Shown here: positions 37,887 to 63,501 of the stretch, piece by piece
Position numbering within the stretch: position 1 is the stretch's first letter
Layout of the letters: each line of letters starts with the position of its first letter
DNA from: an uncultured Colwellia sp.
Lineage (GTDB): Bacteria > Pseudomonadota > Gammaproteobacteria > Enterobacterales > Alteromonadaceae
Direction of reading: 5' to 3'
Length of the DNA stretch: 64,000 nucleotides
Assembly: GCA_913061475.1 (NCBI GenBank)
Contig: CAJXUN010000003.1
Location: 62,001-126,000, forward strand
Program-made: the position numbers and the translations under genes
Notes under the pieces: model-generated
The model's input: only the letters and a program-made list of their open reading frames with translations
What the model was told of the DNA's origin: nothing
The model's database searches: none

Positions 37887-37889
37887 TTT

Positions 37890-41925
<4,036 letters not shown>

Positions 41926-43732: not shown

Positions 43733-43740
43733 TTCTCTGC

Positions 43741-44649: not shown

Positions 44650-44669
44650 TCCGAAACAATATTAAAATA

Positions 44670-44700: not shown

Positions 44701-44806
44701 ATAAAAAGTTATTTAATTTGAAAAGATTGGGAAGTAACTAAATTGGCTAGTTTAAGTAAATAGTTTCTGCTAGTATTTTAAATACTATATTTAACAGGTA
44801 ATAACT

Positions 44807-45157
44807 TTGAACCTTAATGTTGTGCTAAAAATACTATTAGTCGTTTCTATTGTTTTGCAATCGTTAACTGCTGTTGTATCCGCAACATCTGAGAATCACC
44901 AGATAGATATAGAGCACCTTCAAACTCAACATGATCATGACGATGATCGAAATGTTTTAAATGATAATACAGATGATGAACAGCACGATGTAAAGGATTG
45001 TCATCACTGTGGTCATTGCAGTGGCAGCCACTTATCTTGGATTTTAGTCAGTAATTCAAATGTCGATGGTAAGCTAAATATTATCAATAAAACTCCTTAT
45101 CAATTTGACCAGACAAAAGCCTTCCTAGAAGCGATACATCGCCCACCTATTTCTTAA
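44807..45157 (+). CDS. CzcI-like His/Cys-rich small exported protein, RPPI tail
   Basis: This 116-aa protein uses a TTG start at 44807. It has a signal peptide (to about VSATS), an acidic His-rich part (HQIDIEHLQTQHDHDDD), a metal-binding cluster (DCHHCGHCSGSH) and the end IHRPPIS. It is the first gene of the second, rightward Czc-type operon. Possible roles are metal sensing, buffering or delivery to the pump. Confidence 0.7.
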   Translation: MNLNVVLKILLVVSIVLQSLTAVVSATSENHQIDIEHLQTQHDHDDDRNVLNDNTDDEQHDVKDCHHCGHCSGSHLSWILVSNSNVDGKLNIINKTPYQFDQTKAFLEAIHRPPIS

Positions 45158-45240
45158 TTAGATTAATTTTTAATGACCTATTTATTCTTTAACAATGGAT
45201 AAAGGGTTCGTGTTTATTAATTTTAAAATTAAGAACTTTT

Positions 45241-46458: not shown

Positions 46459-46524
46459 ACGCGCTAATTTTTCATTAGCGAAAGAAGCGAAATCTTAAAT
46501 TTATAAAAAATATAGGTTACAAAA

Positions 46525-47859
46525 ATGAATACAATATTTAGTAAAAAATTATTAGCCGTAGTAATTAGCAGCCTGTTAGTAGGGCTTACTACAAGTCATG
46601 ATGCTTTTGCACAGTCGTCAGATGTTACTGATTCTGTCACAAAGCTTTCCAAACAAGACACAAAAGAACATAAACACTCTGAGAACGAGAGAGTTCATGC
46701 TAAAGAACACCCTGAGCATAGTGAGTACTCAGAAAGAGAAAGCCTAAAAGGTCAAGAAGAAGATCTTGACGAGCACGGCCACGAAAAAGGACATAAGGAA
46801 GAAAAAGGTGACCATGACCACGGAAATGAGAATAAAGAAGACGAACATGAAGAAGGTATAACTCTTAGCCCGAAAAATATGTCACTTGCTAACATCAAAG
46901 TAGAAAGCGTCATCCCAGAATATCAATTTAGCACGATATATGCCCCCGGAGAAATAAAAGCCAACGGTTATAAAAGCTACGTGGTTTCACCTCGTACTGA
47001 GTCCGTCATTATTAGTCGTCACGCAGCGCTTGGAGAGCACGTAGAAATAGGCCAAAAGTTAGTCACTTTATTTAGTGAGGCAATGGCACAAGCGCAAGCG
47101 GACTATTTAATTGCCTCCACCGAATGGCAACGTGTAAAAAAGCTGGGTAATAAGACGGTGAGTGAAAGTCGATTATTACAAGCTGAAACAACATACAATG
47201 CGAGTTATGGGAAACTCATTGCTTTAGGGTTAACTGAAAAAGCAATAAATGGTATTTCTAACAAAGACATTAAAGCATTTGGACAATATACATTAACTGC
47301 CCAGCGTGAAGGTGTCGTGCTTCTAGACGACTTTATCCAAGGCCAACGCGTTGATGCCGGAGATACTGTTATGTTACTTGCGGACGAAAAACAATTATGG
47401 GTTGAGGCTAAAGTCTCGCCAAACAAAAAGCTTAGTCTATCAATTAACTCTCCTGCGACAATCAAATTAGAAGGTCAAAGTTACAAAGCTAAAGTTATCC
47501 AAGAAGCACATACTATTGATCCCAAGACCCGCACCCGAATTATCAGATTAGCGGTAGAAAATGCTGATGACAAACTCCACTCTGGTATGTTCGTCAAAGT
47601 CTATTTCCAGTTCGCCACAAAACAGAAAGTGATGGCTGTACCAGAAGGTTCACTGATCCGCAGTGCCGATGGTGATTGGACAGTATTTGTTGAAGACCAT
47701 CCCGGAGAGTTTAAAGCGACTGAAGTTAATCTTGGTCGAGCTTTAGGTGATTTCAGAGAAATTATCGGACTAGAAAGTGGTACTCGAATTGTAACCAAAG
47801 GCGCATTTTTTGTTGCTTCTGAAATCGCTAAAGGCGGATTTGATCCGCATAACCACTAA
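46525..47859 (+). CDS. CzcB-type membrane fusion protein with His-rich N terminus
   Basis: This 444-aa protein has a signal peptide (to about AFAQS, residue 30), then about 70 residues very rich in His, Glu and Lys (HEKGHKEEKGDHDHGNENK is one segment), which can buffer Zn(II)/Co(II)/Ni(II). The adaptor core follows (SPRTESVIISRHAALGEHVEIGQKL; LTAQREGVVLLDDFIQGQRVDAGD). It precedes the RND gene by 11 bp. Confidence 0.9.
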   Translation: MNTIFSKKLLAVVISSLLVGLTTSHDAFAQSSDVTDSVTKLSKQDTKEHKHSENERVHAKEHPEHSEYSERESLKGQEEDLDEHGHEKGHKEEKGDHDHGNENKEDEHEEGITLSPKNMSLANIKVESVIPEYQFSTIYAPGEIKANGYKSYVVSPRTESVIISRHAALGEHVEIGQKLVTLFSEAMAQAQADYLIASTEWQRVKKLGNKTVSESRLLQAETTYNASYGKLIALGLTEKAINGISNKDIKAFGQYTLTAQREGVVLLDDFIQGQRVDAGDTVMLLADEKQLWVEAKVSPNKKLSLSINSPATIKLEGQSYKAKVIQEAHTIDPKTRTRIIRLAVENADDKLHSGMFVKVYFQFATKQKVMAVPEGSLIRSADGDWTVFVEDHPGEFKATEVNLGRALGDFREIIGLESGTRIVTKGAFFVASEIAKGGFDPHNH

Positions 47860-47870
47860 GGAGCAAGACT

Positions 47871-50800
47871 ATGTTTAATAAAATAATAGATTGGTCTGTT
47901 AACAACAGACTCCTTATATTAATTGCACTGTTTGCCACAATTGTCGGCTCAATTATGGTGATCCCAAAATTAAATTTGGATGCTTTTCCTGACGTTACTA
48001 ACGTTCAAGTCGCTGTTAATACTGAAGCACCGGGACTGGCTGCCGAAGAAGTCGAACAACTTATTACTTACCCCATTGAAGCGGTTATGTACGCCTTACC
48101 AGATGTTGAGCAAGTACGTTCAATTTCTAAAACAGGTCTTTCTGGCGTAACCGTAGTGTTTAAAGAAGGCACCGACATTTACTTTGCAAGACAACTCGTA
48201 TTTGAACGGCTTCAAGCAGCAAAAGAGTTAATACCAGAAGGTGTCGGCACGCCAGAAATGGGACCAAACACATCGGGTTTAGGTCAGGTGTTTCAGTACT
48301 TACTTATTTCAGATAAAAACGCTGGCTATGATGCTATGGCACTCAGGAGCCTCAATGATTGGATAGTAAAATTGCTTATTATGCCAGTCGATGGCGTTAC
48401 TGATGTGCTCTCTTTTGGTGGTAATGTTAGGCAATATCAAGTCAACGTCGATCCTTCTAAGCTCCTAGCATATGAACTAACGCAAGAAGATATCGTTAGC
48501 GCATTAGATAGCAATAATGCCAACGTTGGCGGATGGTACATGAACCGTGGACAAGAGCAGCTTGTCATTAGAGGCACAGGCTGGTTTGAGAGTGGTGAGG
48601 CTGGCATCAGTAACATCAAACAAGTTCCCGTTAAAACGGTTGATGGAACGGTTGTGACGGTTTCAGATATTGCTAAAGTTGAAATGGGCAGTGAAATTCG
48701 TCAAGGCGCTGTCACCATGACGCGAAAATCACCCAATGGAAAAGTCGAAAATTTAGGCGAAGTTGTCTCTGGTATTGTACTTAAACGCATGGGTTCAAAT
48801 ACTAAAGCCACCATTGATGGTATCAATGCAAGAATTCCATTAATTAATCAAGCATTGCCGGAAGGTGTTCGCTTTGAGCCATTTTATGATCAGGCTGATT
48901 TGATTGAAAAAGCCGTTAACACTGTTGTAGATGCCTTATTACTTGCATTTATTTTCATCGCGATTGTTCTAGCACTGTTTTTGATGAACTTACGTGCAAC
49001 CTTTCTCGTCTTAATATCTATTCCAATTTCAATTGGTATCGCGTTAATGATCATGGCTTGGTGGGGCATTTCTGCAAACCTTATGTCACTGGGTGGCATT
49101 GCCGTAGCCATTGGTATGCTAGTTGATGGTTCAGTCGTTATGGTTGAAAATATGTTTAAACATTTAAATAGACCTGACGCGACACATTCGAAATCGGTAA
49201 AGGAACGCGTTCCAACTTCTGACGCAGATCCGCACGATGTCGAACACGACGATCATGGTATTGAACTGCGCCTGACAGAAGCAGGTAAAGAAGTGGCTCG
49301 TCCTGTCTTTTTTGCAGCCTCGATTATTTTAGTCGTATTTGCGCCATTGTTCAGTTTTGAAGGGGTTGAAGCAAAGTTATTCCAACCTATGGCAATAAGC
49401 ATCATCTTAGCCGTTGTATCTGCGATTGTGGTTGCGTTGTTTATCGTACCTGCACTGGCAACTTATCTATTTAGATCTGGTGTAAAAGAGAGAGAAAGTT
49501 TCGTTCTCAAGCCGTTAAACATGCTCTACAAAAAAGGGCTGAAATTTTCTCTAAAACACACTAAATTGATTGTTTCTACATCCATACTATTAGTTATATC
49601 TGCTTTGGCAACCGTGCCTTATATTGGTACTGAGTTCGTGCCAGAGTTAGAAGAAGGCACGATAAACTTAAGAGTAACGCTGGCACCTTCTTCAAGTTTA
49701 GATACTGCGTTAACTGTCGCGCCAATTCTAGAAGAAAAATTAATGGCGTTCCCTGAAGTAACCTATGCACTTAGCCGTATAGGTAGGGCAGAAATTGGCG
49801 GCGACCCAGAGCCTGTAAACAATATAGAAATTTACATTGGTTTAAAACCTATCTCACAATGGACAAGTGCATCTAACCGCTATGAACTTCAAGGTAAGAT
49901 GGAAAGATCATTAGAAGAGTTTCCGGGGCTACTACTTAACTTTTCTCAGCCAATTGCGACTCGTGTTGACGAGCTAATATCTGGCGTTAAAGCTCAATTG
50001 GCGATTAAGTTATTTGGGCCAGAACTCGAAGTTTTGGCGGCTAAAGGTCAGGAAATTGAAGCTGCCATAAGAGAAGTCAATGGAGCAAAAGATGTTGCCC
50101 TTGAACAAATTGCAGGGGAAGCGCAACTAGTTGTAAAGCCTAACAGGCAAGAGCTTTCAAGATTCGGGCTTTCCGTCACTAATATTATGGAAGTTGTACG
50201 AGATGGTATCGGAGGCGTTGAAGCTGGGCAAATAATTAACGGCAATGAGCGTTATGATGTTTATGTACGTATTGAAGAAGAATACCGACGAAATAAGGAA
50301 GCGATTTCTGATATTCGCATTCAGTCACCAACAGGTGCTTGGGTACGCTTAGGTGATGTTGCAACGGTGTCGTTTGAATCGGGGCCTCCGCAAGTTAGAC
50401 GCGACGATGTACAAAGACGGGTTGTTATCCAAGCAAATGTTCAAAACCGTGATATGGGTAGCGTAGTTGCTGATATCAAAACGGTAATTGCTGATAAGGT
50501 TGATTTACCTTCAGGCTATTCTGTTTCGATTGGCGGTCAGTTCGAAAGCCAGCAACGTGCTCAAAATAGACTAGCTATTGTTGTACCTTTATCGTTAGCA
50601 CTAATCGCACTGCTACTCTACTTTGCTTTTGGCTCTGTTGGTCAAGCAATGCTGATATTGGTCAACGTACCGCTTGCTGTAATTGGCGGTGTTTTTTCCT
50701 TATATTTATCTGGACAATACTTGTCCGTGCCTAGCTCCGTTGGCTTCATTACACTATTTGGTGTTGCTGTATTGAACGGCGTGGTAATGGTAGAGAGTAT

Positions 50801-51071
50801 TAACCAACGAATTAGAGATGGCTTGGAAGTTTCTCAAGCTGTATTTGAAGGAGCAACCTCCAGATTGAGGCCAGTTTTAATGACAGCAATAACATCGGCT
50901 TTAGGTTTGATACCGATGTTAATGTCTAATGGTGTTGGTGCAGAAATCCAGCGTCCATTAGCGAGCGTTATTGTTGGCGGATTGGTAACAGCAACACTGC
51001 TAACACTGTTTGTCTTGCCTGTTTTATATAGCTGGTTTTCTAGAAAGAAAATTGAGGAGTTATCTAGATAG
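47871..51071 (+). CDS. CzcA-type RND heavy-metal transporter, second system
   Basis: This 1066-aa RND protein has the helix-4 region GGIAVAIGMLVDGSVVMVEN, which lacks the DFG of the pump at 37890, so the metal range differs and may be another divalent ion such as Ni or Co. A loop after helix 4 is about 20 residues longer and His/Asp-rich (DADPHDVEHDDHG). It ends the rightward operon that starts at 44807. It has the normal length and no visible lesions. Confidence 0.92.
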   Translation: MFNKIIDWSVNNRLLILIALFATIVGSIMVIPKLNLDAFPDVTNVQVAVNTEAPGLAAEEVEQLITYPIEAVMYALPDVEQVRSISKTGLSGVTVVFKEGTDIYFARQLVFERLQAAKELIPEGVGTPEMGPNTSGLGQVFQYLLISDKNAGYDAMALRSLNDWIVKLLIMPVDGVTDVLSFGGNVRQYQVNVDPSKLLAYELTQEDIVSALDSNNANVGGWYMNRGQEQLVIRGTGWFESGEAGISNIKQVPVKTVDGTVVTVSDIAKVEMGSEIRQGAVTMTRKSPNGKVENLGEVVSGIVLKRMGSNTKATIDGINARIPLINQALPEGVRFEPFYDQADLIEKAVNTVVDALLLAFIFIAIVLALFLMNLRATFLVLISIPISIGIALMIMAWWGISANLMSLGGIAVAIGMLVDGSVVMVENMFKHLNRPDATHSKSVKERVPTSDADPHDVEHDDHGIELRLTEAGKEVARPVFFAASIILVVFAPLFSFEGVEAKLFQPMAISIILAVVSAIVVALFIVPALATYLFRSGVKERESFVLKPLNMLYKKGLKFSLKHTKLIVSTSILLVISALATVPYIGTEFVPELEEGTINLRVTLAPSSSLDTALTVAPILEEKLMAFPEVTYALSRIGRAEIGGDPEPVNNIEIYIGLKPISQWTSASNRYELQGKMERSLEEFPGLLLNFSQPIATRVDELISGVKAQLAIKLFGPELEVLAAKGQEIEAAIREVNGAKDVALEQIAGEAQLVVKPNRQELSRFGLSVTNIMEVVRDGIGGVEAGQIINGNERYDVYVRIEEEYRRNKEAISDIRIQSPTGAWVRLGDVATVSFESGPPQVRRDDVQRRVVIQANVQNRDMGSVVADIKTVIADKVDLPSGYSVSIGGQFESQQRAQNRLAIVVPLSLALIALLLYFAFGSVGQAMLILVNVPLAVIGGVFSLYLSGQYLSVPSSVGFITLFGVAVLNGVVMVESINQRIRDGLEVSQAVFEGATSRLRPVLMTAITSALGLIPMLMSNGVGAEIQRPLASVIVGGLVTATLLTLFVLPVLYSWFSRKKIEELSR

Positions 51072-51095
51072 AATAATTTTATTAAGAACCAATAT

Positions 51096-51123
51096 CCCAC
51101 ACCTAAGTGACGTTTTGTGTGGG
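51096..51123. terminator. Possible terminator hairpin between convergent genes
   Basis: CCCACAC/GTGTGGG (51096-51102, 51117-51123) forms a 7-bp stem with a 14-nt loop, 25 bp after the RND gene stop. No strong T-run follows, so this is weak evidence. Confidence 0.4.
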
Positions 51124-51208
51124 ACTATTAATTAATAGTAAAGATTCACCAAAAAGTTTAATGAAATTAAATGTAATAGTTATTGCAACTCGCGTAGCAT
51201 ACTAACAT

Positions 51209-51556
51209 TCAATTCAATTTTGGAGTTTTGAGCTGTTCTCTCATTTCTAAAATACGTTCAGGTGAATGCACTCCTATTCTCATTACTACAAGCTCAGCAA
51301 ATGAAATGTCATATAACTTATGTTCAACATCAATTACATAACAACTTCCGTTATGAGTAATTACTTCTATTTTGTCGCCAACAACTCTTTTGTTAACAAT
51401 TTTTGAAGTAACTATTTGCTCAAATGGACGAAATCTAAATGTTTCATCGTCAATAACTACACCAGCTAAGACATCAATCAAAAATGTTTTTTCAAAATCT
51501 TTGTAGTCATAAACCGATACTATGCTTACGTCCTTTAAGTAAGTTTTTTCTGTCAT
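51209..51556 (-). CDS. Unrecognised 115-aa protein
   Basis: The start is ATG 51556, preceded by GAGAGGTG and overlapping the stop of the upstream gene by 3 bp. This small mixed alpha/beta protein (VSIVSVYDYKDFEKTFLIDVLAGVVIDDE; IEVITHNGSCYVIDVEHKLYDISFAELVVMR) has no signal or membrane helix. It is co-translated with the 345-aa protein encoded before it. No family is recognised. Confidence 0.6.
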   Translation of the reverse strand: MTEKTYLKDVSIVSVYDYKDFEKTFLIDVLAGVVIDDETFRFRPFEQIVTSKIVNKRVVGDKIEVITHNGSCYVIDVEHKLYDISFAELVVMRIGVHSPERILEMREQLKTPKLN

Positions 51557-52590
51557 ATCTGAACACCTCTCGTGTCTTCTAGAGAATATGGACGAAAGCA
51601 TGTTAAGTACTTAACCCCATTGACCTTTAATAACTCGTCATCTGCGTCAAAATGAGCAAGAACACTAGCTCGATACAACGAAATATGCTTTTCACAATCA
51701 ATCGTATTAAACAAACTAGCCTCTACTCGACGGGCGTAAAATATTAGGCTCTGCTGGTCAATACGAACTATAAACTTTTGGTCTCCGTCTAGGTTTTTAA
51801 CCTGAAGGTTAAGGTCAGGCTTATGCCAGTCTGATACCAACGAAGGCACCAGAGGAAAGCCATAAACTAAATATCGTACCCTTTCAATTTCGAAGGTCGT
51901 TGGATTTAATCTAGCGTCATTTCCTATTCCAGAGTTGAAAAGCTCAAGTGTCATCATCAGCCAGTCTTCATGCTTTGAGAAACTGTTACCATTAGAAATG
52001 CAGCCCTCAAACTCACCATCGTGCTCCCACTTGATTTTGTACAAATAACTTTTAATATTATCGAAAGATATTTTTTCAAAAGGAAACTTAGTGGCAATGA
52101 GCCTGTAGTAGCAGCCGTGAACCTTTAAATCCGCATATTGAACGGCTAATGGATCATCATATGCGTCAAAATAAGGTCGCCATTCCAGCCTAAAGTTAGC
52201 TCCTGTATTAATGATGAACTTGGCATCTTCAGACAAACCCAAAACTTTATAAATTGCAGAAACTAATTCTAAAGTTTCGATATCAACAAACATCTGGCTT
52301 TCTATGCGGGATGCCATTGCCGTTATTTCTTTATGAAGTGACTCAATTATTTCTTGATCATCGTATTCATTAATAATCAGATATTTGAAAGAGTCATGCG
52401 TAAGAATTGAATTTAAATCATTGCTGTCAAAAACGTCTCTAAGACGCTCATGAGCTTGTGGAATAGTAGCACAATCGTAAACACCGATTGACCATAGACG
52501 TTCAGCATATTGCTGGGGAAATTCTAATAGTAAGGCGAAGTTTTTTGTTTGATTATTTAATTTATTTTGTAATTGATTTAGCGATATCAT
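51553..52590 (-). CDS. Unrecognised 345-aa protein
   Basis: The start is taken at ATG 52590 (MISLNQLQNKLNNQTK), with GGAAAA upstream. It is a soluble protein. Its first 120 residues resemble the whole of the 120-aa protein encoded at 52801: both begin with Q(A/T)K...A.LL, have a Y/C-rich second helix and end in a segment finishing GLS. The remainder (WRPYFDAYDDPLAVQYADLKVHG..., FIVRIDQQSLIFYARRVEASLF) is not recognised. The order with the 115-aa gene suggests a two-gene unit. Confidence 0.6.
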   Translation of the reverse strand: MISLNQLQNKLNNQTKNFALLLEFPQQYAERLWSIGVYDCATIPQAHERLRDVFDSNDLNSILTHDSFKYLIINEYDDQEIIESLHKEITAMASRIESQMFVDIETLELVSAIYKVLGLSEDAKFIINTGANFRLEWRPYFDAYDDPLAVQYADLKVHGCYYRLIATKFPFEKISFDNIKSYLYKIKWEHDGEFEGCISNGNSFSKHEDWLMMTLELFNSGIGNDARLNPTTFEIERVRYLVYGFPLVPSLVSDWHKPDLNLQVKNLDGDQKFIVRIDQQSLIFYARRVEASLFNTIDCEKHISLYRASVLAHFDADDELLKVNGVKYLTCFRPYSLEDTRGVQI

Positions 52591-52800
52591 GTAATTTTCC
52601 AAATAATTTATTGCGAAAAAATAATGGCCTACCAACACACTATTTATTCGATTATTTGAATCACCAAATTTTTACGGATGCTCCGCTTCACTGCTCATAT
52701 TTTTATTTTAAAAACATGTGTAGGCGTAGGCTGTCCGTTCAGCCTTCACCTCATAATATCGGCAAATTTTGAAATAACAACTTACATATTTGTACAATTT
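52591..52800. other. Intergenic region
   Basis: This AT-rich DNA contains no convincing gene; short plus-strand frames here have no recognisable content. It probably holds the promoter for the gene starting at 52590. Confidence 0.4.
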
Positions 52801-53163
52801 TCAGTTGGAAATTTCCACTTTAAACTCGTTAAAGCTAAGCCCGAAGAGCGATACGACCATCTCTTCGCTAATATTCGAACCGGGAAATTTTTTTTCAAAA
52901 TTTCCAATTATTCTATCTAGGTTGCTTGCCAATAGTTTTAATAAAAACAATTCGGAGTGAGGAGATAAGGCAGTTAAAGTTATCAGAGGATTATCAAATG
53001 ATTCAGACTTTATCTTAGCAATTAAATCACTATAACTGTCGCAGCAATAAAGACAAATAGCCAAACTTTCTTGGGCTTGCCCAAGCTGGCAAGATAATAA
53101 CTTCGCTAATCGTTTTGCCTGTCTTTTAATGTTTTTCAACAGGTCTTCATTATTATGAGACAT
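52801..53163 (-). CDS. Unrecognised 120-aa helical protein
   Basis: This soluble, all-helical-looking protein (DLLKNIKRQAKRLAKLLSCQLGQAQESLAICLYCC; EEMVVSLFGLSFNEFKVEIS) has several cysteines. It is a paralogue of the N-terminal 120 residues of the protein encoded at 51553. It has no clear ribosome-binding site. Its function is unknown. Confidence 0.55.
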   Translation of the reverse strand: MSHNNEDLLKNIKRQAKRLAKLLSCQLGQAQESLAICLYCCDSYSDLIAKIKSESFDNPLITLTALSPHSELFLLKLLASNLDRIIGNFEKKFPGSNISEEMVVSLFGLSFNEFKVEISN

Positions 53164-53291
53164 TCAGATACCAACAAAAAAGCAGCAACAAAAGTCCACG
53201 TACTTTCATTACTAAATTTTTATTTGGTATTTGAGATAATTAATGTCAGAGTAAATCCATTTCGTTCTCTTCGTGGGAACTGGCCGCTCTG

Positions 53292-53319
53292 AAAAGGCCA
53301 CTACTTAAATAGTAGTGGC
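53292..53319 (-). terminator. Probable terminator of the PhoH gene
   Basis: GCCACTACT/AGTAGTGGC (53297-53305, 53311-53319) is a perfect 9-bp stem with loop TAAAT, followed on the minus strand by CTTTTC. It lies 36 bp after the PhoH-family stop. Confidence 0.65.
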
Positions 53320-53354
53320 TATTGTCGCAAGATTATAAAGAAATGTGAAATATG

Positions 53355-54737
53355 TTAGAGGTTTTGCTCTGTAAATTGAGCCAACGAACTTCTTTCTACT
53401 TCATCAAAGATTAAAACGCTGCCCTTTTCATAGTTCCTGTAGATATTTACCGCAGCACTAGCTCCGCTGCTTGCGGGGGTAATAAATCGATCATCAATTT
53501 GCGCTAAGTTTCCGAGCACAATGGTTCTACAATTCTTGCCACCTCGACTAAGCATTCCTTTCATCTGAGCACGAGTCATATTCTGCGCTTCATCAATGAT
53601 CAATACCGCATCATCTATCGAGCGTCCTCGAAAGTAAGCCATGGAAGTAAACTCAATATTCGCTTTTTCAATAATGTGCTCTATAGTTGCATGAATATTG
53701 GTCTCATGATTATCGTCAGAGTGCATCGAAATTAAAGCATCTGTAACTCCTGCTAATAATGGCATGGACTTATCTTTAAGATCCCCCGGCAAATACCCCG
53801 GATCATCATCCATAAAGTCACGGGAACGCACCACCACTATCTTTTTGTACTGTTTTAACTCTAAAACTTGGTGCAGCCCTGCCGCAACCGCCAAGAAAGT
53901 TTTTCCTGACCCCGCTGGGCCAAGGATTATATTTAAGTCGTAATCGGGGCTTGTGAGCTGCTCTAAAGCAATTGCTTGCCTGTGGTTTTTAGGTAGTATT
54001 CCCCAAATTTTTTCATGCTTTCTAGAAAGGAGTTCAGTGAAAACATGTTCATCGGTTACTTCAGTGATCTTCCCAATATGTTCGGCTTCATCAAACCAGT
54101 ACATCCGTGGTTGCGCTTCTTCATTGAAAGTTTCACGGCTAAAGCGATAGGTTTTACCTGACATCGCAAATCCATCTTGCTCATCACATCTATCAAACAA
54201 ATCGCCATCAAATTTTTGCACTCCAGTGTATAACAAGTCCATATCTGAAATTTGATTGTCAACAAGTACGTCTTCTGCATCAACACCTATTGTTCTTGCT
54301 TTTAGTCGCATATTTATATCTCGACTAACAATAGTGACATCCTTATCTAACTCTTTCTGTAAATGAAGGGCATAATTAATTATTCGATTATCTGCATCGC
54401 TACCGATACCATGCTTTAGCTCTTTCGCCATATCAAGCTGGGTATCAATACCAATGTATAATTTCCCACGCTTTGCTGTTTCTGTGGAAGGCAGCTCTAT
54501 ACCAGCTTCCATCTGTTCTGCACTATGTCCATTAATAATATCTTCAAGCATCCTGATCACTACGCGAGCATCTGCACTTACAGACTTGTTTGTGCGTTCT
54601 TTCAAATTATCTAATTCTTCAAGTACCGTTAGGCAAATATAAATATCCTCCTTATAGGCCAAGAGGGACTTGGGATCATGCACTAGCGCTGATGTGTCTA
54701 AAACTCGTGGGTTTCTGTTTTCTTTACTATTCTTCAT
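53355..54737 (-). CDS. Intact PIN-PhoH ATPase (PhoH2-like), island copy
   Basis: This 460-aa protein has an N-terminal PIN ribonuclease-like domain (VLDTSALVHDP, residues 12-22; ELDNLKERTN; SDADNRIINYAL; VSRDINMRLKA) and a C-terminal PhoH ATPase. The Walker A is GPAGSGKT (273-280), LPGDLKDKSMP lies at about 316-326, and Walker B LIIDEAQN and a final ERSSLAQFTEQNL are intact. PhoH2 proteins couple RNA unwinding to PIN cleavage. It has the same architecture as the host gene that the island interrupts (61887-62912), but differs from it clearly in sequence. Confidence 0.9.
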   Translation of the reverse strand: MKNSKENRNPRVLDTSALVHDPKSLLAYKEDIYICLTVLEELDNLKERTNKSVSADARVVIRMLEDIINGHSAEQMEAGIELPSTETAKRGKLYIGIDTQLDMAKELKHGIGSDADNRIINYALHLQKELDKDVTIVSRDINMRLKARTIGVDAEDVLVDNQISDMDLLYTGVQKFDGDLFDRCDEQDGFAMSGKTYRFSRETFNEEAQPRMYWFDEAEHIGKITEVTDEHVFTELLSRKHEKIWGILPKNHRQAIALEQLTSPDYDLNIILGPAGSGKTFLAVAAGLHQVLELKQYKKIVVVRSRDFMDDDPGYLPGDLKDKSMPLLAGVTDALISMHSDDNHETNIHATIEHIIEKANIEFTSMAYFRGRSIDDAVLIIDEAQNMTRAQMKGMLSRGGKNCRTIVLGNLAQIDDRFITPASSGASAAVNIYRNYEKGSVLIFDEVERSSLAQFTEQNL

Positions 54738-55205
54738 ATAAAATTCTCACAATTATTTTTGTAATTTTCTGCGCTAAATAAAGTTTTATTTTCAGATGCG
54801 AAATTACTTATATTGAACAAGCAAATACTATTTGCTCTTATTTTTTTGAAGTATTTAGAGGTAAATTTATCTGTTACTTCTAGAAGTAGAAGTAATAATA
54901 TTGAAAAGGCATAGAACAGTGTATTTTTTACTATTTCACTATTCTCCTATTTTACGAAAACGCATATAAATATTAGATCCTTCATTACTGCTTTAACGTT
55001 TATCATATTCCCTGATTCCCATTAAGCCATTTAATAATTACCATCGGATGACAAATCATCAAAAAGTAAAATTTATCTAATACTCACCTATAACTTTAGC
55101 AAAAAAAAGGGCTGTCAACTACTTAATTTTGAGTAAAGTCAATGGTTAATTGAGATTATTTATATTTATGAAAGACTTATTAAATGGGCACTTTTAAAGC
55201 TATAA
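54738..55205. other. AT-rich intergenic region, gin operon end to PhoH gene
   Basis: No gene is seen in this 468-bp stretch. It contains an imperfect repeat TTACTTC/GAAGTAA (54874-54880, 54889-54895) and probably the promoter of the PhoH-family gene (start 54737). Confidence 0.5.
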
Positions 55206-56648
55206 TTAACTATTCTCCGCTTTTCCATCTAATAGCTCATAGATGTCATCAAGTATATGTCCAACATCATCCATTAACTCAGCACTACTAATGTGACCCG
55301 ACAGAATTTTTTCTTTTAACTCCTTCACCTCATCTTTTGCAGAGCTAACACCATATATCACTTGTGCAGCATCCATAGTTTTATTAACACCAGATAACTC
55401 ACTAAATGCTAAGTGAATATAAGGAGACAAAGATTTTTCATGTTTATGCCCTGTCCAAGCCATGACTTTATCTTTGAAGGCTTTTTCAACAGCAAACTTG
55501 GCTTTAAACTCCCCTTCATCTTGTAAATTGAAAAGCTCAATTAACATTTCAATCTTGTCTGTAATAAAGCTATGTCTAAATGCATGAGCCATTAAGTTTC
55601 CTGTAGCACCTATATCTTTTGCCCACTGATTAAAATAGGTTGTAATGGTATCAGGACCTAATGGCAATCCACTATTCTCCCCTATAAACACAAAACCATG
55701 ATCTCCCATGGTACTCATACCTTTGTTTTTACGGGACTTATTAACTTTTTTCAGTATTCTCGCTCGGTTCCGCTTAATATATTTAGCTATAGACTTCAAC
55801 GTAGTTCTGTAGACAGGAACAAATCTTTCTTCTTTTTCCTGTTCAAGCGCATGTTCTTTTTGCTTAAGCGTGATTAGTCGTAATAAAGGTATTTTTTCAT
55901 TGCTGGCTAACGCTTTTTCAATATCGGATACTCTAAGATTCGCAACTTCAGAACGCCTTCCACCAGTTGCCTTGTATGCTTTAACTAAACTCTTATTCCT
56001 TTCTACAAGGTTTCTATTTTCTCCAGCAGATATAAAAGCCATTAGTTTTTCAACATCTCTTAAAGCGACTGGCAAACGTTTCTTATATTCATCTTTAGTG
56101 GGAATACATACGTGATTATAATAGGTAATTGTTTTTCCGTATTCCTTGTATTCACACTCATCTACCGTCAATCGACAGCCAGATTCCCCTATAAACGACT
56201 TGTCACTTAGTCTTTTTCCTATATCCACTAAAAAAGCTAATGTTTGACGGCCAATTTTTCCTACACGAGTATTACTTCTTACCTTCAGGTCTTTCTTTTT
56301 TCCTGTCTGGTGCTTTTCAGCCATTAATCCATTTATGAAAAGTTCAAAATAAGCATTATTTAATTCGCTAAAATGAATATCATTTTGATAACAAAAACGA
56401 ATGATATGCGGTAATAAATCGGCATCGGCATTTGCTTTCGCTGTACCACCTTTCCCTTTTAATGACCAGTTTTTAGTAGTGATACCTTTCATAATATACA
56501 AATTAGCTTCAATACATGGCAGCCCACTAGGCCAATAAAGCATAGGCATGTTCGGTAAAGTACGATACCTATAATTATCTCTTAGTACATTGTGAAATAA
56601 TGGTATTTCCACATTCTCTAAGTTTATTCTTAATTGATGCTTTTTCAT
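55206..56648 (-). CDS. Tyrosine recombinase of four-gene gin-like operon (480 aa)
   Basis: This site-specific integrase has a full catalytic set: Arg in TGGRRSEVANLR (about residue 232), HAFRHSFIT (HxxR, about 380-385), WTGHKHEKSLSPYIH with the second His/Trp region and the nucleophile Tyr (about 425). It lacks homology to phage integrases outside the core. It is the last gene of the operon and overlaps the coiled-coil gene by 4 bp. Probably one of GinA/B/C of GInt islands; the exact letter is not assigned. Confidence 0.85.
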   Translation of the reverse strand: MKKHQLRINLENVEIPLFHNVLRDNYRYRTLPNMPMLYWPSGLPCIEANLYIMKGITTKNWSLKGKGGTAKANADADLLPHIIRFCYQNDIHFSELNNAYFELFINGLMAEKHQTGKKKDLKVRSNTRVGKIGRQTLAFLVDIGKRLSDKSFIGESGCRLTVDECEYKEYGKTITYYNHVCIPTKDEYKKRLPVALRDVEKLMAFISAGENRNLVERNKSLVKAYKATGGRRSEVANLRVSDIEKALASNEKIPLLRLITLKQKEHALEQEKEERFVPVYRTTLKSIAKYIKRNRARILKKVNKSRKNKGMSTMGDHGFVFIGENSGLPLGPDTITTYFNQWAKDIGATGNLMAHAFRHSFITDKIEMLIELFNLQDEGEFKAKFAVEKAFKDKVMAWTGHKHEKSLSPYIHLAFSELSGVNKTMDAAQVIYGVSSAKDEVKELKEKILSGHISSAELMDDVGHILDDIYELLDGKAENS

Positions 56649-57196
56649 GATTTATCTAACTTGAAGCTTTTCATTAATAAGCTTTCAATTCGATTTCTTT
56701 CTGACTCAATAGCATTTAGAACTTTTTGTTCTTTCGCTGATTCTGCCACACTTCCTAGAGCCTCAAGCGTGACTTCTATGGCTTTAGACAGCATTAGATT
56801 TGATGCACGAACATTTCGGAGTTGTTTTTCTAATTCATCCACTTTTAAATTCAAGCCCTCTCGTGTATCTGCCCTGACTTCTCGCTTTTTGCGACTTAGC
56901 TCTCTTTCGTGTTCTTCAATTGCTTTTAAGGCGTTTTCTCTAAGCTCGTCTAATTCAGTGAAACCGCCTAATAAAGCTTGTTCGCAATGACTTTTAAAAG
57001 AGTTCAAAGACATTGATATAAATTCATCACCTCTACTAAATTTGGCCCAGCTTGTTTGAGAACGAAGCGCATTGATTAACTCCCCATCTTTAACAAACTT
57101 CCCGACTTCTTCAGCTTTTTCAAATAACTTGAGAAAATCATTTCTTCGTTGTATTGAAACCAACTTTTTTTCTTTGTTTTCAGAATGACTACTCAT
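56645..57196 (-). CDS. Small coiled-coil protein of gin-like operon
   Basis: This 183-aa protein is highly charged and helical with a strong coiled coil (about residues 85-165, e.g. LRENALKAIEEHERELSRKKREVRADTRE and VDELEKQLRNVRASNLMLSK). It overlaps both neighbours (8 bp and 4 bp). In GInt islands a small protein is required with the three integrases, and in Tn554 a small TnpC plays a comparable part with TnpA/TnpB. It probably helps synapsis or orientation. Confidence 0.75.
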   Translation of the reverse strand: MSSHSENKEKKLVSIQRRNDFLKLFEKAEEVGKFVKDGELINALRSQTSWAKFSRGDEFISMSLNSFKSHCEQALLGGFTELDELRENALKAIEEHERELSRKKREVRADTREGLNLKVDELEKQLRNVRASNLMLSKAIEVTLEALGSVAESAKEQKVLNAIESERNRIESLLMKSFKLDKS

Positions 57197-59471
57197 ATTT
57201 CAATACCAAATCCATAACTTCAGCCTTACTTCCATTAGCATTAGTTACTACCGCATAATCTGCTTTTAAATCAATTACCCCATCTGCCAACATTTGCTCT
57301 ATAGATAATAATAATGCTTCGTACCCACTGTATCTTTGAGGGACAACGTGCTTATGAGCTGGTGACAATGATATAATTTCATCTTCTACATCTTCACTTA
57401 TCTCTTCATAAGTTCGATATTCCAAACTATTGATGCCGAACCTATTTTTTAAAACAATTTCTAACTCACCAATCTTACTAATGTCATCATTTTTAATTCC
57501 ATCGATTAGCCGCTCAGCTTGTACGCCTCGCAATTCTTCCCCTGTCATTTCTTCCTTGATATAGCGTTCCAAATGAGAAATATCTGTATGCGCCAAAAAG
57601 TACCTCAGTGTTTCACCAGCTTCATAGCCATAAGACCAGTAAAAAGTCATGGCAAAGAATCGTCTCAATTGATGTTGTCGAATATAAAGCCTTCTTGTAA
57701 TACCATCTTCATCAACATAGGTTCTAGTTTCAAAGTAATCACAAAAGGCATCTAGGTTATCAACAAAAGACTCTGAATTTCCTTCTTTAAAAGTCAACGT
57801 ATGAGAGCTTAACGAGTTAAACAATCCCATATTATCAAGATGTTCAACTAGCCCCAGCTTCTTTATTTTTGCATTAAATGTTTGCCATTTATAAATTAGT
57901 GAAGCCAAACTATTCAATATGGGTCTACTCAATTCTTCTCTAAGAATTTCACCACCATAAGCGACACCTGACTTTCTGTTATCAAAAATAAGATTAAACT
58001 CCTGATCATTTGAATCACTGGGATCTACATCTGATGGTGAAATTGCACTCAATGGGTCCAAATCTACTAGCTCACCCATTCTTCTTGCCATTGTCGCACC
58101 GATAACTATCTGCAATGAGCCTTGGAGGACGTTAAATAAAAAGAATAAATCTTTATTTTCTCTTCTTTTTTGATATCGATCCTTTTCTGTCGAAGCATAA
58201 CCGATCACCTCAACTCCCAACTCAATGACTTCAGGGGTTAAGTATTTTTTATAGCCAAAGTTAATAAACTCTAATAACGAAGTCTCTTCTATTTCTTTGC
58301 TTCCCGCTTCAAGCATTTTGGTAATTGAATCAAAAAGAATCTCTCGATTGTCATAGATAAATTCAAATGCATTTCTCATTTGGATTAAAACTTCACCAGC
58401 TCCAATTGTTAAGGTTCTACCTGCTCGCTTCGCAGGTTTTGCCATCAGTGCTTCTAAGTTTATTTCTCCAAACAAGCGGCTATTAATTTCAACAACTTCC
58501 AGTCCACTAAGCTCTGCAACATGAGCGATATCAGACAATAAAAAGAAATTCTGACGAATAGCCCTAAAATAAGCATGAGAGATCCCAAGCTCAGCTCTTT
58601 TATTTAAAGGGTGCTGTTTAAATTCACTGGTTTGATTATATGCGGGGCTAGCTATGATCTGATATGCCTGAGGCATTGGTAGTTGAACCCTATGTCCATA
58701 AAGCGTGTTTGAGTAAAGCCTAGTACGCAAAAATGATGCGCTAATATTTCCATATCGATTACTTCCCTTTTTAAAATCAAAAGCCCCTTGCAACATCAAA
58801 AAAGCAATTTCTCGACTTTGTTTCTTATTACCTACTGTCGAGTCATCAAGCGTAAATTTCTTTGACAATTTATCAAAGTGTTCATCTAATTCTTGAGCAC
58901 TATTCGAAGAAATATTCTGCTCAATATAACTAGCTAGTCGCTCTTCAGTGTCATAAACACCAACGGTTATTTTATCTTTATCAAATAGGTCAGCTAACAT
59001 TGAATAAACATAGTCAGAGTTCCAGTTGGAAAAATGTTTTTCCAAATGAAATTTATCCGAGTTTAATAACAGGTAATCAATTAAATATAGGGTATTCCTA
59101 ATTTTTTTAGATATTGTGGTAAGCGATAGTTTTTGAAACCCACAATGTAATGAGGACGATTGAATCAACAACCAACATTTAAATGTATTGAGTAGCTTAT
59201 AGTGTGCTGGAGACAGTAACTTTTCTACCCCTCCTTCACTGTTAATAAACGCGACATCGAAATCTATCTTAACCGTAGCGCTATCTAACCTTATGTTCCA
59301 CACATTATCTTTATGATTCGAAAGCAGCCATGCGGGAGCTAAGATGTCAGAATCATATCCTTCAACATACTTGTCAACCAACTCTTTACTTTGAGCAACG
59401 CTCTCCGATGGGGAAAGCCCTACGACCAAGCGGTGATATTCATTTTTGTTTTCAACATCAACTAATTTCAT
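57189..59471 (-). CDS. Large tyrosine recombinase of gin-like operon (760 aa)
   Basis: This integrase has an unusually long N-terminal part (about 460 residues) before the catalytic domain: Arg in GATMARRMGELVDLDP (about 466), HQLRRFFAM (HxxR, about 604-607), then AHTDISHLERYIKEE with the last His and the nucleophile Tyr (about 640). The catalytic residues seem complete. It starts one base after the stop of the 777-aa recombinase gene. Confidence 0.85.
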   Translation of the reverse strand: MKLVDVENKNEYHRLVVGLSPSESVAQSKELVDKYVEGYDSDILAPAWLLSNHKDNVWNIRLDSATVKIDFDVAFINSEGGVEKLLSPAHYKLLNTFKCWLLIQSSSLHCGFQKLSLTTISKKIRNTLYLIDYLLLNSDKFHLEKHFSNWNSDYVYSMLADLFDKDKITVGVYDTEERLASYIEQNISSNSAQELDEHFDKLSKKFTLDDSTVGNKKQSREIAFLMLQGAFDFKKGSNRYGNISASFLRTRLYSNTLYGHRVQLPMPQAYQIIASPAYNQTSEFKQHPLNKRAELGISHAYFRAIRQNFFLLSDIAHVAELSGLEVVEINSRLFGEINLEALMAKPAKRAGRTLTIGAGEVLIQMRNAFEFIYDNREILFDSITKMLEAGSKEIEETSLLEFINFGYKKYLTPEVIELGVEVIGYASTEKDRYQKRRENKDLFFLFNVLQGSLQIVIGATMARRMGELVDLDPLSAISPSDVDPSDSNDQEFNLIFDNRKSGVAYGGEILREELSRPILNSLASLIYKWQTFNAKIKKLGLVEHLDNMGLFNSLSSHTLTFKEGNSESFVDNLDAFCDYFETRTYVDEDGITRRLYIRQHQLRRFFAMTFYWSYGYEAGETLRYFLAHTDISHLERYIKEEMTGEELRGVQAERLIDGIKNDDISKIGELEIVLKNRFGINSLEYRTYEEISEDVEDEIISLSPAHKHVVPQRYSGYEALLLSIEQMLADGVIDLKADYAVVTNANGSKAEVMDLVLKYE

Positions 59472-59472
59472 A

Positions 59473-61806
59473 TCACCCTCTCACTCTAAAATTACTTATC
59501 GTCAACGGCTGCGCTTTGGCCTCTTGATACATGTCTAAAATTTCTTCTTCAAACGACTCTGTTGTGACATCATCACTTGTCAACTGATGCTCTAATTGAG
59601 TGATTATCAAAGTTGATAGCTCTTCCCATGTATTGATAGTTTCAACCGCATAATCTAAACCTTCAATTTCTTCACTTGTTGCCTCAAAGAAAAAGAGTAG
59701 TATCCGCAGCAAAGGCGTAGATAAAACTACCGTCCCATCCTGTTTAGGTTTTGCCTCATTAATATTAAAGACATTTCCATCTCTAATATGCCCATGCATA
59801 CTGTTTAGCCTATGATTTTCTAGAAACTCATCTAATGCCTCTGGTGATATATCAATTGCTTTATGCAGATACTTAGACTCCTTCATTGCTTCATATACAA
59901 TTGCATTCTGAAAGATCCTTATCCAGCGATCTTTAAAATACTTCAATATTGGTAAAGGTAAATAACGATTAACCAAATCAGCTCTTTCTTCTTTATGCCC
60001 TAGCGCTTCACACATTTTTTTAACTGAATTGGTTTTTAAGAATACTTCAACGCCTGAACTAGACCTCAGCCTGCTAATAGTCAACATACTTGCGACTTCT
60101 TGTGCTCTTTCTTTAGATACACGCGAAGACGGCAAAGATAAACTTCTCGTGAATACGGAACTGGATGTTATTTTCTTTAAATTTGTAATACCTTTGAGCT
60201 TAGCTGGCAGCTTTTCCAAAGAAGCTATCAATAACATATACTGATAGTCATTATTGCCTTGGCGCTTCAAAAATTCCCTCGCCAATTTTGTATGTTCAAC
60301 AATACGTTCAACAATAACTTTGGAAGTATCGTTTAACTTAACTATCTGTTCTGCATTAACTGGACCTCTGCGTTTTTTAACACTTCGAATAACCCAGCCA
60401 TCTTTCACTTTTACATAACCTAATGGTTTTCCACCATCATCATAAAAGCGCCAGTTCAATAACCATGAGTCTGTTATCTTAGGATGCTCATGGACTAGAG
60501 AAAGTATTAATGGATATAGAACATGATATGTTGGAATACATAATAATTTGTTGAGATATTCAGTTTGATCTCGAAAACCTAAAAACGTTGAATAACCTCC
60601 CTTTTTTCCGGGTTGTGCCCACAAAAAATGATTGAACGTTGCACATGCTATTGCTCGTTTTTGAGCGATTGAATCATAATCTATGACATCACCAAGTTCC
60701 TTCGGTGCAGCAAGAGCTGCATATTTTTCATATCGTTTTAGTCTTTTGTAATTAATCTCACTTGCTCTGTCAGATATGGTGATCACATGACCTATATCTC
60801 TTCGAATGTCCTTAACCACTTCTTTTATGGCTTGCTTATCAGTTCGTTCAAGTGGAATTTTCGTTAATAATTTATTGTTAAAAATGCCGGAACTACACCC
60901 TTCAGACTTTTCCATTGAATTATGAGAGCCTGACAATGTGATAGCTTGTCTAAATCTGGGCACAGGAAGAGGAAAAATGGGTTCTTCAAAAATAGCATAG
61001 GTGATTAAACACTCTCGATAAATACTCATTTTTATCGACCAAGCTTTTACAAATGCGCTTCCATCCAATCCTTTCTCGATATGGCTTTTCAGCTCAATAT
61101 TGAAGATGACGGAAAGATATTTGACCGCCAAACTAGACTGTAGATACTGCTTAAGGGTAGGAAAATCATCAGCTAATTTTATAAAGTATTTAAACAAGCC
61201 TTTAAAGTGCTTAATGTTTGTTTGAACCGTCTGTTCTTTATTCTTCCGACAAAAACGTGAAAGTGCTGAAAAAAGTTGCTGAGCTACTTTGTCACCATAA
61301 GCTTCTCTAATAAAAGAAAATTCTACTGATATTTTGTTGCCTGTATTATCTTCTAGTAACCAGCCTGAAAAAAAGCCAAGCTTTTCTTCGTTAACGCCAC
61401 TAAAGCTATCAAGTATTTTTTGAACATCGGTATGCACTTTTACCTTAGATAACACTGGAGCAGACAATGCTACATTTGCCTTTTCAGCAACATGAACAAA
61501 CACTTGAACCATGTAAGTACTGTAATTGTATTTATGAATTAGAGAGCCATCTAATCTTTCATAAATAAAACCAATCACTGATGAAAGATAACGGTTGATT
61601 TCGCTGCTACTATTGAATGACTTTAAAGTTAAGTGCTGCTCAGTAGAATAAAGATATGCGTCAAGAATTTTTAGAACAAGAGAGTAGCTCTTTTGTACTT
61701 TGTCAGTGCAACTTAGTATATGCTCTTCAAATGTAGCTCGTTGCGGTTCGGATAATACTTTAAAAGGAAACTGCGATAATATTTTTGTATTGATTAAATT
61801 TGTCAT
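59473..61806 (-). CDS. Large, divergent tyrosine recombinase-like protein of gin-like operon (777 aa)
   Basis: This is the first gene of the operon, starting about 140 bp from the island junction. Its C-terminal region (about residues 575-650) keeps a recombinase pattern: SMLTISRLRSSSG where HxxR is expected (His replaced by Ser), EALGHKEERADLVNRYLPLP with His and a candidate Tyr. The N-terminal 550 residues are not recognised. It may be catalytically weak or act as an architectural partner. The operon position agrees with a Gin integrase. Confidence 0.75.
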   Translation of the reverse strand: MTNLINTKILSQFPFKVLSEPQRATFEEHILSCTDKVQKSYSLVLKILDAYLYSTEQHLTLKSFNSSSEINRYLSSVIGFIYERLDGSLIHKYNYSTYMVQVFVHVAEKANVALSAPVLSKVKVHTDVQKILDSFSGVNEEKLGFFSGWLLEDNTGNKISVEFSFIREAYGDKVAQQLFSALSRFCRKNKEQTVQTNIKHFKGLFKYFIKLADDFPTLKQYLQSSLAVKYLSVIFNIELKSHIEKGLDGSAFVKAWSIKMSIYRECLITYAIFEEPIFPLPVPRFRQAITLSGSHNSMEKSEGCSSGIFNNKLLTKIPLERTDKQAIKEVVKDIRRDIGHVITISDRASEINYKRLKRYEKYAALAAPKELGDVIDYDSIAQKRAIACATFNHFLWAQPGKKGGYSTFLGFRDQTEYLNKLLCIPTYHVLYPLILSLVHEHPKITDSWLLNWRFYDDGGKPLGYVKVKDGWVIRSVKKRRGPVNAEQIVKLNDTSKVIVERIVEHTKLAREFLKRQGNNDYQYMLLIASLEKLPAKLKGITNLKKITSSSVFTRSLSLPSSRVSKERAQEVASMLTISRLRSSSGVEVFLKTNSVKKMCEALGHKEERADLVNRYLPLPILKYFKDRWIRIFQNAIVYEAMKESKYLHKAIDISPEALDEFLENHRLNSMHGHIRDGNVFNINEAKPKQDGTVVLSTPLLRILLFFFEATSEEIEGLDYAVETINTWEELSTLIITQLEHQLTSDDVTTESFEEEILDMYQEAKAQPLTISNFRVRG

Positions 61807-61886
61807 TAGGATAAAACTTTACTTTTATCCAGACTACCATTATTTTTTGACAGTTGTCAATAAAAATAAATTCATCAAATAACACT

Positions 61887-62912
61887 TCAAGCAGCTAAAT
61901 ACGGCAACACAACATCTTTTTGACAACTACTGTAATTTAGGAAATTTTCGGTACCGGGCAAAAAACCTATGGATTCAGCGATTTCAGGTGTGCTACGAGT
62001 GACAATGATTTTATCGTAAAGCCCACGTTCAATAACTTGTTCCAAAGCCGTAGCTAAAGCAAGTAAGGTTTTACCGCAGCCGGCTGGCCCAGTCAAAATG
62101 ACTAAGTCAATGGTTGGATCAAGTAGAGCATCCATCGCCATGCCTTGATAAATGTTCTTTGGGTGAATGCCCCAAGCCTGTTTTGCCATCAGGCGTTCAC
62201 GGCTCAAATCAGTTATTGCTACGTTGTCATTATCCCAGCCAGTTACCTTAGCGGCAAAATGTTCGCCTTCATCAATCAAATATTCGTTCATGTAACGATT
62301 AGGCAAGACATCACGTTTAATATAATGCGTGGTATTACGGCCTTCCGTTTCACTTTCACACTTATCAACATGCTGCCAAAAATCACCTGAAAACTGATGA
62401 TAGCCTTTGGTTAAAAATTTAATATCATCAATTAATTGATCAGTGCGGTAGTCTTCAACATAAGCTAACCCTGCCCCTTTAGCTTTTAAACGCATGTTGA
62501 TATCTTTAGTAACGAGCACAACTTTATTTTTAGGATTATTTGACTGTAAATAAATCGCACAGCTAATTATACGGTTATCATTTTCATTGAAAGATAATTT
62601 AACTTTGCTTTCTTCTAACGCGTAATCATTAAAAATAGACAAACAGCCGCTGGGATGTAATTCATCATTTTGCGGTAATTTAACTCCCGCAAGCACTTGT
62701 TCAGGCGAGGCATCAACAAGAATATCTTCAAGCGCTCTGATCGCCACTCGCGCATCACGACTAACATCTTTCTGGCGGTCTTTGATAGAGTCAAGTTCTT
62801 CTAATACCGTCATGGGTACGACGACATCATGTTCTTTAAAGGAGAGAAAAGCGAAAGGTTCGTGCAGTAAGATATTGGTATCTAAAACATAAATAATTTT
62901 TTCTGCTGTCAT
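61887..62912 (-). pseudogene. Host PIN-PhoH ATPase gene, truncated by the island
   Basis: The remaining product is 341 aa from ATG 62912 (AAGGGA upstream). The PIN domain (IYVLDTNILLHEP, residues 7-19; NDNRIISCAIYL; VTKDINMRLKAKG) and Walker A GPAGCGKT (275-282) are intact. Native sequence runs through STPEIAESIGFLPGTE (to residue 322). The last 19 residues (starting NFLNYSSCQK) are unlike any PhoH and come from island DNA. The Walker B, sensor and C-terminal parts, about 120 residues, are missing. It was presumably a 460-aa YlaK/PhoH2-type protein before insertion. Confidence 0.85.
61941..61965. other. Island/host junction (att site) inside phoH
   Basis: Homology to PhoH stops after the Glu codon at 61947-61949; the motif around it is CGGTACCGGGCAAAAAACC (61949-61967 region), which encodes GFLPGT on the minus strand. 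Island DNA begins at about 61946 and the first recombinase gene at 61806. The partner copy of this core should lie at the left end of the island, outside this window, before the rest of phoH. Confidence 0.65.
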
Positions 62913-63501
62913 ATGAAAGTCCCTTACCAAGTGAAGGCTCCACAGCATGTTTGTTATAAACTGCTGCCAGAAACCACAAAAAGTTGTAACTCATCTAACC
63001 AAAAACAATTTAATTACCTATTCGTTCTTATCATTGTTTCACAATCATAAAAACAGCTCGCGCTACTAGAATCATTGCTACTTTGACAGTTTACTTTAGA
63101 GTAAGCAAGTCGCTTTATTAAATATTATGACTACACTAAAACACTTTTTTGACACTTTGATGACTATAGTAAACTAAGCGATTGCTATTAACATTTTATC
63201 CATAAGGTTCGGTTAAATTTTCAGTACTACAATCCTGAATATTTAACAAAATAAAAACATAAGCAACTGATAATTAAATCCCTTCAATATAACAAAAACA
63301 GTTTACTTTAACTTCAAGTTAACTTGCACAGAAGCAGTAATCGCGATGAGTGATAAAACAAAATTCAATTTTATAAGTTTTAATCAAAAAAAGTGCCATT
63401 TTCCGGATTTATTTAATGATCACTTCTATGATTAACGATACTATAGCGCCTTTTTTTTGACGTGTGTTTATTACGCGAATTATTGAGTTGGAGTTTTTTC
63501 T
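62913..63501. other. Divergent promoter region, host phoH and rapA
   Basis: This 589-bp AT-rich stretch between divergent genes holds no ORF of note. TTGACG (63457-63462) is a possible -35 for rapA, but no good -10 is seen at the right distance. GGAG (about 63490) precedes the rapA start. Confidence 0.5.

Follow-up and report, generated by a model that had tools for sequence, protein, structure and literature searches.

The 64,000-nucleotide stretch of DNA considered here (the window) corresponds to bases 62001-126000 of contig C3 in the 4.28-Mb draft genome of an uncultured Colwellia sp., and positions 1..61945 of it belong to a genomic island that interrupts the host gene phoH2. We consider it probable that this is a site-specific island with several recombinases, that the LPGTE codons of host phoH2 are its insertion site, and that it makes up for the damage by bringing its own complete phoH2, referred to below as the spare. 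By its ends as read, the island occupies C3:61425-123945 (62,521 bp), starting 576 bp to the left of the window. The functions of all genes described here were read from sequence, and the genomes and loci used for comparison carry labels beginning with G and L, respectively.

The island and its target

The 5' part of host phoH2, from the PIN domain to LPGTE, lies on the minus strand at 61946..62948, and its open reading frame (61887-62948) continues into island DNA. When aligned with three intact relatives, the host gene matches them up to LPGTE and diverges at approximately 61946, which is the boundary that the initial annotation had proposed. That annotation had also anticipated that the missing 3' end would be found to the left. 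A search with the island's own PhoH located a 3' piece on the same contig, at C3:61009-61494, outside the window. The host gene resumes at T-E-E-E-K beyond the far end of the island and reaches C3 base 61424, 0.58 kb to the left of window base 1. The 5' part closes with LPG-T-E, so the Thr-Glu codons are present in both parts and no codon has been lost. With both target halves located, an insertion expected to be at least 61.9 kb in length measures 62.5 kb. We surveyed 17 genomes of the genus, including the window's own (G000). The host phoH is cut by an island in four of them (G000, G001, G003 and G005), it is uncut over the part searched in 11 of the 16 others, and no phoH was found in G009 in this survey. 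Relatives free of the island therefore carry an intact gene over that part, and the left flank does hold the phoH remainder. These comparisons confirm the predicted site-specific, multi-recombinase island inside phoH.

One expectation failed: the other end lacks the predicted CGGTACCGGG core. The sequence common to both ends is an imperfect AC(C/T)GAA(G) of only 6-7 bp, compared with repeats of 10-17 nt in GInt islands. A presumed 6-bp spacer between host and element end, assigned by analogy with GInts and with strand-biased circularizing integrative elements (SEs), would lie at 61946..61951 on the minus strand, where the host-like CCGAA is followed by a last base that differs. Next to it is the operon-side terminal motif, TTTCCTAA-N10-TTGTCAAAAA (61917..61944, minus strand), with an inverted partner at C3:61426-61457. 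In the inward direction, the sequence is ATTTCCTAA-N10-TTGTCAAAAA at the operon end and TTTTCCTAA-N14-TTGTCAAAAA at the far end, with unequal spacing. The pattern TTTCCTAA N5-16 TTGTCAAAAA has one match in the 64-kb window and one in a 15-kb stretch around the other end; both are at the junctions and mutually inverted, and shuffled sequence gives none. When the last A is omitted from the end motif, 9 of 220 loci match, every one at a phoH junction. Six of these nine are copies of the window's own two ends, and the rest are L160, L139 and L140.

The recombination operon and its relatives

The recombination operon consists of four minus-strand genes that overlap or abut one another from 61806 to 55206, in agreement with the four-gene operon originally described. 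In order, they encode a Tfp-like protein (gene 1, 59473..61806, 777 aa), a large tyrosine recombinase (gene 2, 57189..59471, 760 aa), a small protein (gene 3, 56645..57196, 183 aa) and an ordinary tyrosine recombinase (gene 4, 55206..56648, 480 aa). Three tyrosine recombinases had been predicted, and two of them hold up. The 480-aa protein matches Phage_integrase (E 7e-12), and residues R463, R464, H600, R603, H628 and Y637 of the 760-aa protein are invariant in six aligned relatives and readable as recombinase residues. This large protein has no match in Pfam, NCBIfam or PDB, including by profile search, and a single weak integrase match in PHROGs (E 0.04). The third, the 777-aa protein, is reduced to a degenerate recombinase candidate without database support: R581, G603 and Y615 are kept in all six relatives and the His of LGH in five of six, and no meaningful database match was obtained, including in a PDB profile search. 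Because hhalign gave no match between the 777-aa and 760-aa families, their kinship is unproven. An AlphaFold model of the 777-aa protein, built from two sequences, had a mean pLDDT of 34 and was discarded. The predicted coiled-coil protein can be recognized in the 183-aa product, which is coiled-coil-like, with matches that are weak.

The closest counterpart is found in L160, a Colwellia metagenome-assembled genome, in which host phoH is cut after codon 322, at the same codons and bases as in the window, and is followed by four genes (59, 61, 44 and 55% identical to those of the window) and then by a spare. Homologous operons of the same order are present on plasmids of Providencia, Pseudomonas sp. 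FeN3W and P. aeruginosa (pPA1609). In P. aeruginosa pF068 the first gene is replaced by two genes, an Acinetobacter defluvii plasmid has the first two genes whole and an integrase match that is a short piece only, and the region in a P. koreensis relative is poorly annotated. The A. defluvii element (L055, 5683-15292), approximately 10 kb in length and type-B-like, interrupts a helicase gene and has qatC and qatD among its own genes. An empty site is provided by the related plasmid pALWED1.1 of A. lwoffii, in which the helicase gene is whole; the flanks match over 1534 bp at 99.9% and 1131 bp at 99.5%, with a 5-bp overlap. TTTCCCTAA is present at the ends of this element, and the far end has a TTGTCAAAA arm. 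These loci define a four-gene element type, which we call type B, whose ends have been located both in a chromosome and in a plasmid. Relatives of the 760-aa protein were found across the class in 1 of 369 genomes, the window's own. The same protein alone gave no match against the genome contigs, and Tfp and IntB profiles gave none against viral contigs.

Two further observations concern this operon. On the Providencia plasmid (L051, 3576-11638) it has a class A beta-lactamase gene on one side and umuD on the other, and umuC lies at a greater distance. In both type-B islands at phoH, approximately 0.5 kb with no listed gene separates the last recombinase from the spare (window 54738-55205; L160 9461-10000), and this stretch, similar in appearance in the two, is possibly a leader or regulatory region.

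A clade of spare phoH2 genes

The spare lies behind the recombinase operon at 53355..54737 on the minus strand and encodes a complete PIN-PhoH protein of 460 aa that is 42% identical to the host protein. The initial annotation had overlooked this gene, together with its presence at islands that interrupt phoH in different motifs. Within the genus, a second PhoH2 of this kind is present in four genomes (G000, G001, G003 and G005), exactly those in which an island cuts host phoH. We then considered 295 genomes of the family, one per species, many of them drafts and the carriers related by ancestry. Thirty-two carry the spare clade at 67-86% identity, and the next proteins among the matches listed reach at most 43%. 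No uncut host-type phoH was found in the 32 carriers (in the 31 others, searched with the C-terminal part of phoH, pieces only), several of these being drafts. Among the 263 non-carriers, 246 have a phoH match at 1e-80 or better, as counted by eye. Members of the clade occur in Colwellia, Thalassotalea, Pseudoalteromonas, Glaciecola, Alteromonas, Shewanella gelidii, Vibrio ruber, Ferrimonas marina, Idiomarina and others. Plasmids and viral contigs were considered as further bearers of the clade and rejected, because the best identities among the matches listed are only 38% and 31%, respectively.

Mean identity between carriers is 83% for the spares and 65% for the host 5' parts, the spare being the closer of the two in 848 of 861 non-independent pairs, and G001 and G005 have identical spares and different hosts. 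The ratio of nonsynonymous to synonymous substitution rates (dN/dS) for the spare is 0.03 and 0.04 in the two usable pairs of nine, six others being saturated synonymously and one identical. These values indicate strong purifying selection on the spare.

A scan of genome contigs for the spare gave 52 loci, of which 46 are clade members with a nearly full-length match; one locus of the clade (L185) runs into a contig end. Pooling 78 oriented loci and removing near-duplicates left 56 non-redundant spare carriers. In 42 of these, a host 5' part that reaches at least codon 270 is cut in a conserved motif, with the spare downstream. The junction motifs are the P-loop, LPGTE, Walker B and GNLAQID-NYL. 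BLAST ends of the host 5' part fall at codon 282 in 21 carriers, 379-392 in 13, 408-409 in two, 419 in three and 429 in one, and at LPGTE they fall at codon 322 in L160 and 332 in the window, the latter an overshoot from the same bases. The ends in L118 (392) and L175 (429) are likewise apparent overshoots into element sequence. The 14 other carriers comprise two at contig edges (L151 and L164), one with a cut spare-type resident (L157), four with decayed host remnants (L165, L155, L178 and L184) and seven with no recognizable host piece (L156, L171, L177, L181, L187, L190 and L194). In the four loci with a decayed remnant, recognized by tblastn in L165 and by eye in the others, the spare beside it is intact and no recombination machine was found within the DNA examined. 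In Vibrio ruber (L184, 9582-11356), the decayed start of host phoH is followed by the intact spare, with ordinary-looking genes behind.

Three kinds of recombination operon at phoH2

Three different recombination operons, types A, B and C, accompany the spare clade. We took 20 3' regions for a machine search, one of which (G570) proved to be host side, so that its island lies outside the stretch. Type A, whose genes are in the order known from SEs, was detected in nine regions by tblastn with the operon that lies behind the spare in G445. At least three of its genes are present in G558, G443, G529, G438, G655, G408 and G635, and IntA or a piece thereof in G511 and G434. Type C is a run of six genes next to the phoH 3' piece in G484, G548, G422, G449, G645 and G414, all of them P-loop cuts. 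In L128 (7527-17867) the six products are 1092, 787, 234, 147, 743 and 466 aa in length, and further sets are present in L129-L132, L145 and L193. In the G484 copy, gene five resembles RecD2 and gene six gives weak matches to recombinases. The six-gene operon seems to be an independent machine. From a 5-bp overlap, the P-loop islands could be read as Tn7-like, but this was dropped because a six-gene operon ending in a recombinase stands beside six of them. No machine was recognized in the 3' regions of G487, G531, G005 and G445. The six-gene operon also shows a weak VPA1267-family match.

Types A and B have no BLAST match to one another, and hhalign gave probabilities of 0.1 and 2.5% for their large proteins. 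The only pair of proteins from different types to match by profile is IntB (type B) with the 787-aa protein (type C), for which hhalign gave a probability of 94%; there is a weak tblastn match in L129.

Several loci show signs of more than one island at phoH. In L157 (8802-11386) and L193 (10001-10549), a spare-type resident beside rapA is cut in its P-loop by a type-C island that brings another spare. L161 (6875-11383) has the same element tail at the end of host phoH and at the end of a first spare, and an intact second spare is next, an arrangement that suggests tandem insertions. G487 and G531 are hybrids, in which the 5' cut is that of a type-C P-loop island and the 3' side is a type-B far end at LPGTE (L139, 893-923; L140, 2255-2285); islands therefore stack or recombine at phoH.

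The position of the spare differs among the types. In type B it lies behind the recombinase operon, and in types A and C it follows the cut host gene directly. The spare start is within 5 nt of the stop codon of the truncated host frame in 17 of 19 type-A sites, and the tails of the truncated host frames are unlike the PhoH C-terminus. With the spare start touching the host-frame stop, or the spare directly behind the cut gene, integration would place the spare on the transcript of the gene that has just been broken. We envisage that the island inserts site-specifically in the LPGTE codons of host phoH2, that the large and the ordinary tyrosine recombinase, aided by the Tfp-like and small proteins, would pair the inverted ends, and that strand exchange would proceed over the 6-bp spacer, as proposed for SEs and GInts. 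The spare would then restore PhoH2 function.

Comparison with known systems

The replacement of an interrupted target is already known for recA (PMC4405046) and for bcp (PMC9345347, PMC5991714); this and the comparisons that follow refer to the sections of the cited papers covered here. The recA mobile element (RME) of Vibrio cholerae, 32.8 kb in length, has one phage integrase and one XerS-like recombinase, and resembles the present island in lying in a conserved gene, in having a complete divergent copy at one end and in its inverted end repeats, but it differs in its target and in its recombinases (PMC4405046). The SE-6283 (Tn6283) family of SEs has the order intA-tfp-intB-srap and shares with the window several recombinase-type genes at one end, a 6-bp spacer, presumed in the window, and the cutting of a conserved gene, in its case bcp, of which it carries a homologue (PMC9345347, PMC5991714). 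SEs combine such a spacer with a strand-biased circle and no empty site, and a 6-bp spacer of this kind fits the window junction by inspection. However, the gene order in the window is not that of SEs and the target is not bcp. SE ends are imperfect inverted repeats of 13-19 bp (C and C'), and the window's island has inverted TTTCCTAA and TTGTCAAAAA with unequal spacing at its ends. With type A at phoH as the proxy for SE proteins, neither BLAST nor profile comparison gave a match to the large proteins of the window. Like RME and SE-6283, the window's island interrupts a conserved gene of which it contains a complete homologue.

The initial annotation had classified the island as a GInt. The likeness consists of a four-gene operon at one end, large cargo, site-specific insertion and, though shorter here, imperfect repeats, and a cargo island inserted site-specifically is indeed what we observe (62.5 kb, with the same codons used in L160). 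GInts have the order ginA-ginB-ginC-ginD with the small protein last (PMC5385486), whereas the window operon has the small protein third and the ordinary integrase last, and the sections of that paper covered here do not mention a second copy of the target gene. By gene order, the basis of this comparison, the operon differs from that of GInts and the classification is not established. The size is not notable in itself, since GInt cargo of at least 70 kb is already given (PMC5385486). It could still be a true GInt with a shuffled operon, in which gene 4 is ginA, gene 2 is ginB, gene 1 is ginC and gene 3 is ginD. Four genes comprising recombinases and a small protein, imperfect end repeats and a cargo island speak for this. 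However, the altered order recurs in L160 and on the Providencia, FeN3W and pPA1609 plasmids, which argues that type B is a stable type of its own, and we regard a shuffled GInt as quite improbable.

Alternative explanations

Two other explanations concern the spare itself. It might be a working part of the island, an RNA nuclease-helicase for maintenance, defence or cargo expression, and breakage of the host gene would then avoid mixed assemblies, an idea suggested for RecA in recA islands (PMC4405046). The distinctness of the clade and its association with three machines speak for this. Against it, the spare stands beside decayed host copies in four loci with no machine found within the DNA examined, and in type A its start is tied to the cut host frame; we judge this explanation unlikely. 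Alternatively, the spare might be a passenger, if one ancestral island held phoH near its end and later machines acquired the gene by recombination or stacking, with no selection for replacement. The hybrids G487 and G531, with their P-loop 5' cut and type-B far end, would fit such a history, as would G005, G408 and G434, in which the 3' piece begins well behind the 5' cut. The strong purifying selection on the spare, its persistence beside decayed host copies and the lack of an uncut host gene in the 32 carriers argue against a passenger, and we doubt that this is the explanation.

Replacement of the broken gene by the spare is thus the explanation that we favour, and several observations weigh against it. 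Seventeen of the 263 non-carriers have no strong phoH2 match, and in G010, a genome with no spare, phoH is broken by approximately 324 bp near codon 50 (L043, 10191-10516), which together indicate that phoH2 can be lost. Coupling of start and stop is seen in only 1 of 21 type-C sites and in neither of two type-B sites (in type B the operon lies between), and the test is weakened by having taken the spare start codon nearest to the host-frame stop. A promoter scan at the operon end found none, and no machine was recognized in the islands of G001, G512 and G631.

We give about even weight to a broader proposal, that phoH2 is a self-renewing landing pad, used at different motifs by three machines of little or no detectable similarity that carry the same spare clade. 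Each insertion would destroy the resident gene and install a fresh copy that still holds some of the motifs, so that the locus could accept island after island with no loss of function; L157, L193, L161, G487 and G531 show signs of repeated insertion.

Among the literature matches listed, which covered titles and abstract openings and lay outside subscription journals, none described an island inserted in phoH. Within that coverage, we likewise found no description of phoH2 as a target, of the type-B four-gene order, or of one spare clade with unlike machines. With these islands, phoH2 would join recA and bcp among the targets for which an island brings a replacement, and one spare clade is seen with unlike machines. 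A testable rule follows, namely that a conserved gene can be home to a mobile element provided that the element brings a spare and draws on the expression of the gene that it breaks. Trees of phoH2 from marine Gammaproteobacteria should also be read with care, since host and island genes are mixed in them.

Cargo and neighbouring genes

Recombinase-based islands with defence cargo include the Gamma-Mobile-Trio (GMT) islands. Membership in this group was considered and rejected, as six window proteins matched no GMT model (GmtX, GmtY or GmtZ) in NCBIfam at E 0.1. In another genome, three consecutive genes of 441, 764 and 200 aa are present at a GmtY locus.

The metal and defence cargo proposed for the island was borne out. 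It includes a pair of genes resembling a cyclic oligonucleotide-based antiphage signaling system (CBASS) at 11004-12625 on the minus strand, recognized by PADLOC models as an oligonucleotide cyclase (11666-12625) and a two-transmembrane (2TM) effector (11004-11729). Behind the spare, also on the minus strand, are two genes whose products have no Pfam match: C7 (52801..53163, 120 aa), which occupies this position in 14 of the 31 loci clustered, and C5 (51553..52590, 345 aa), which does so in 16 of the 31.

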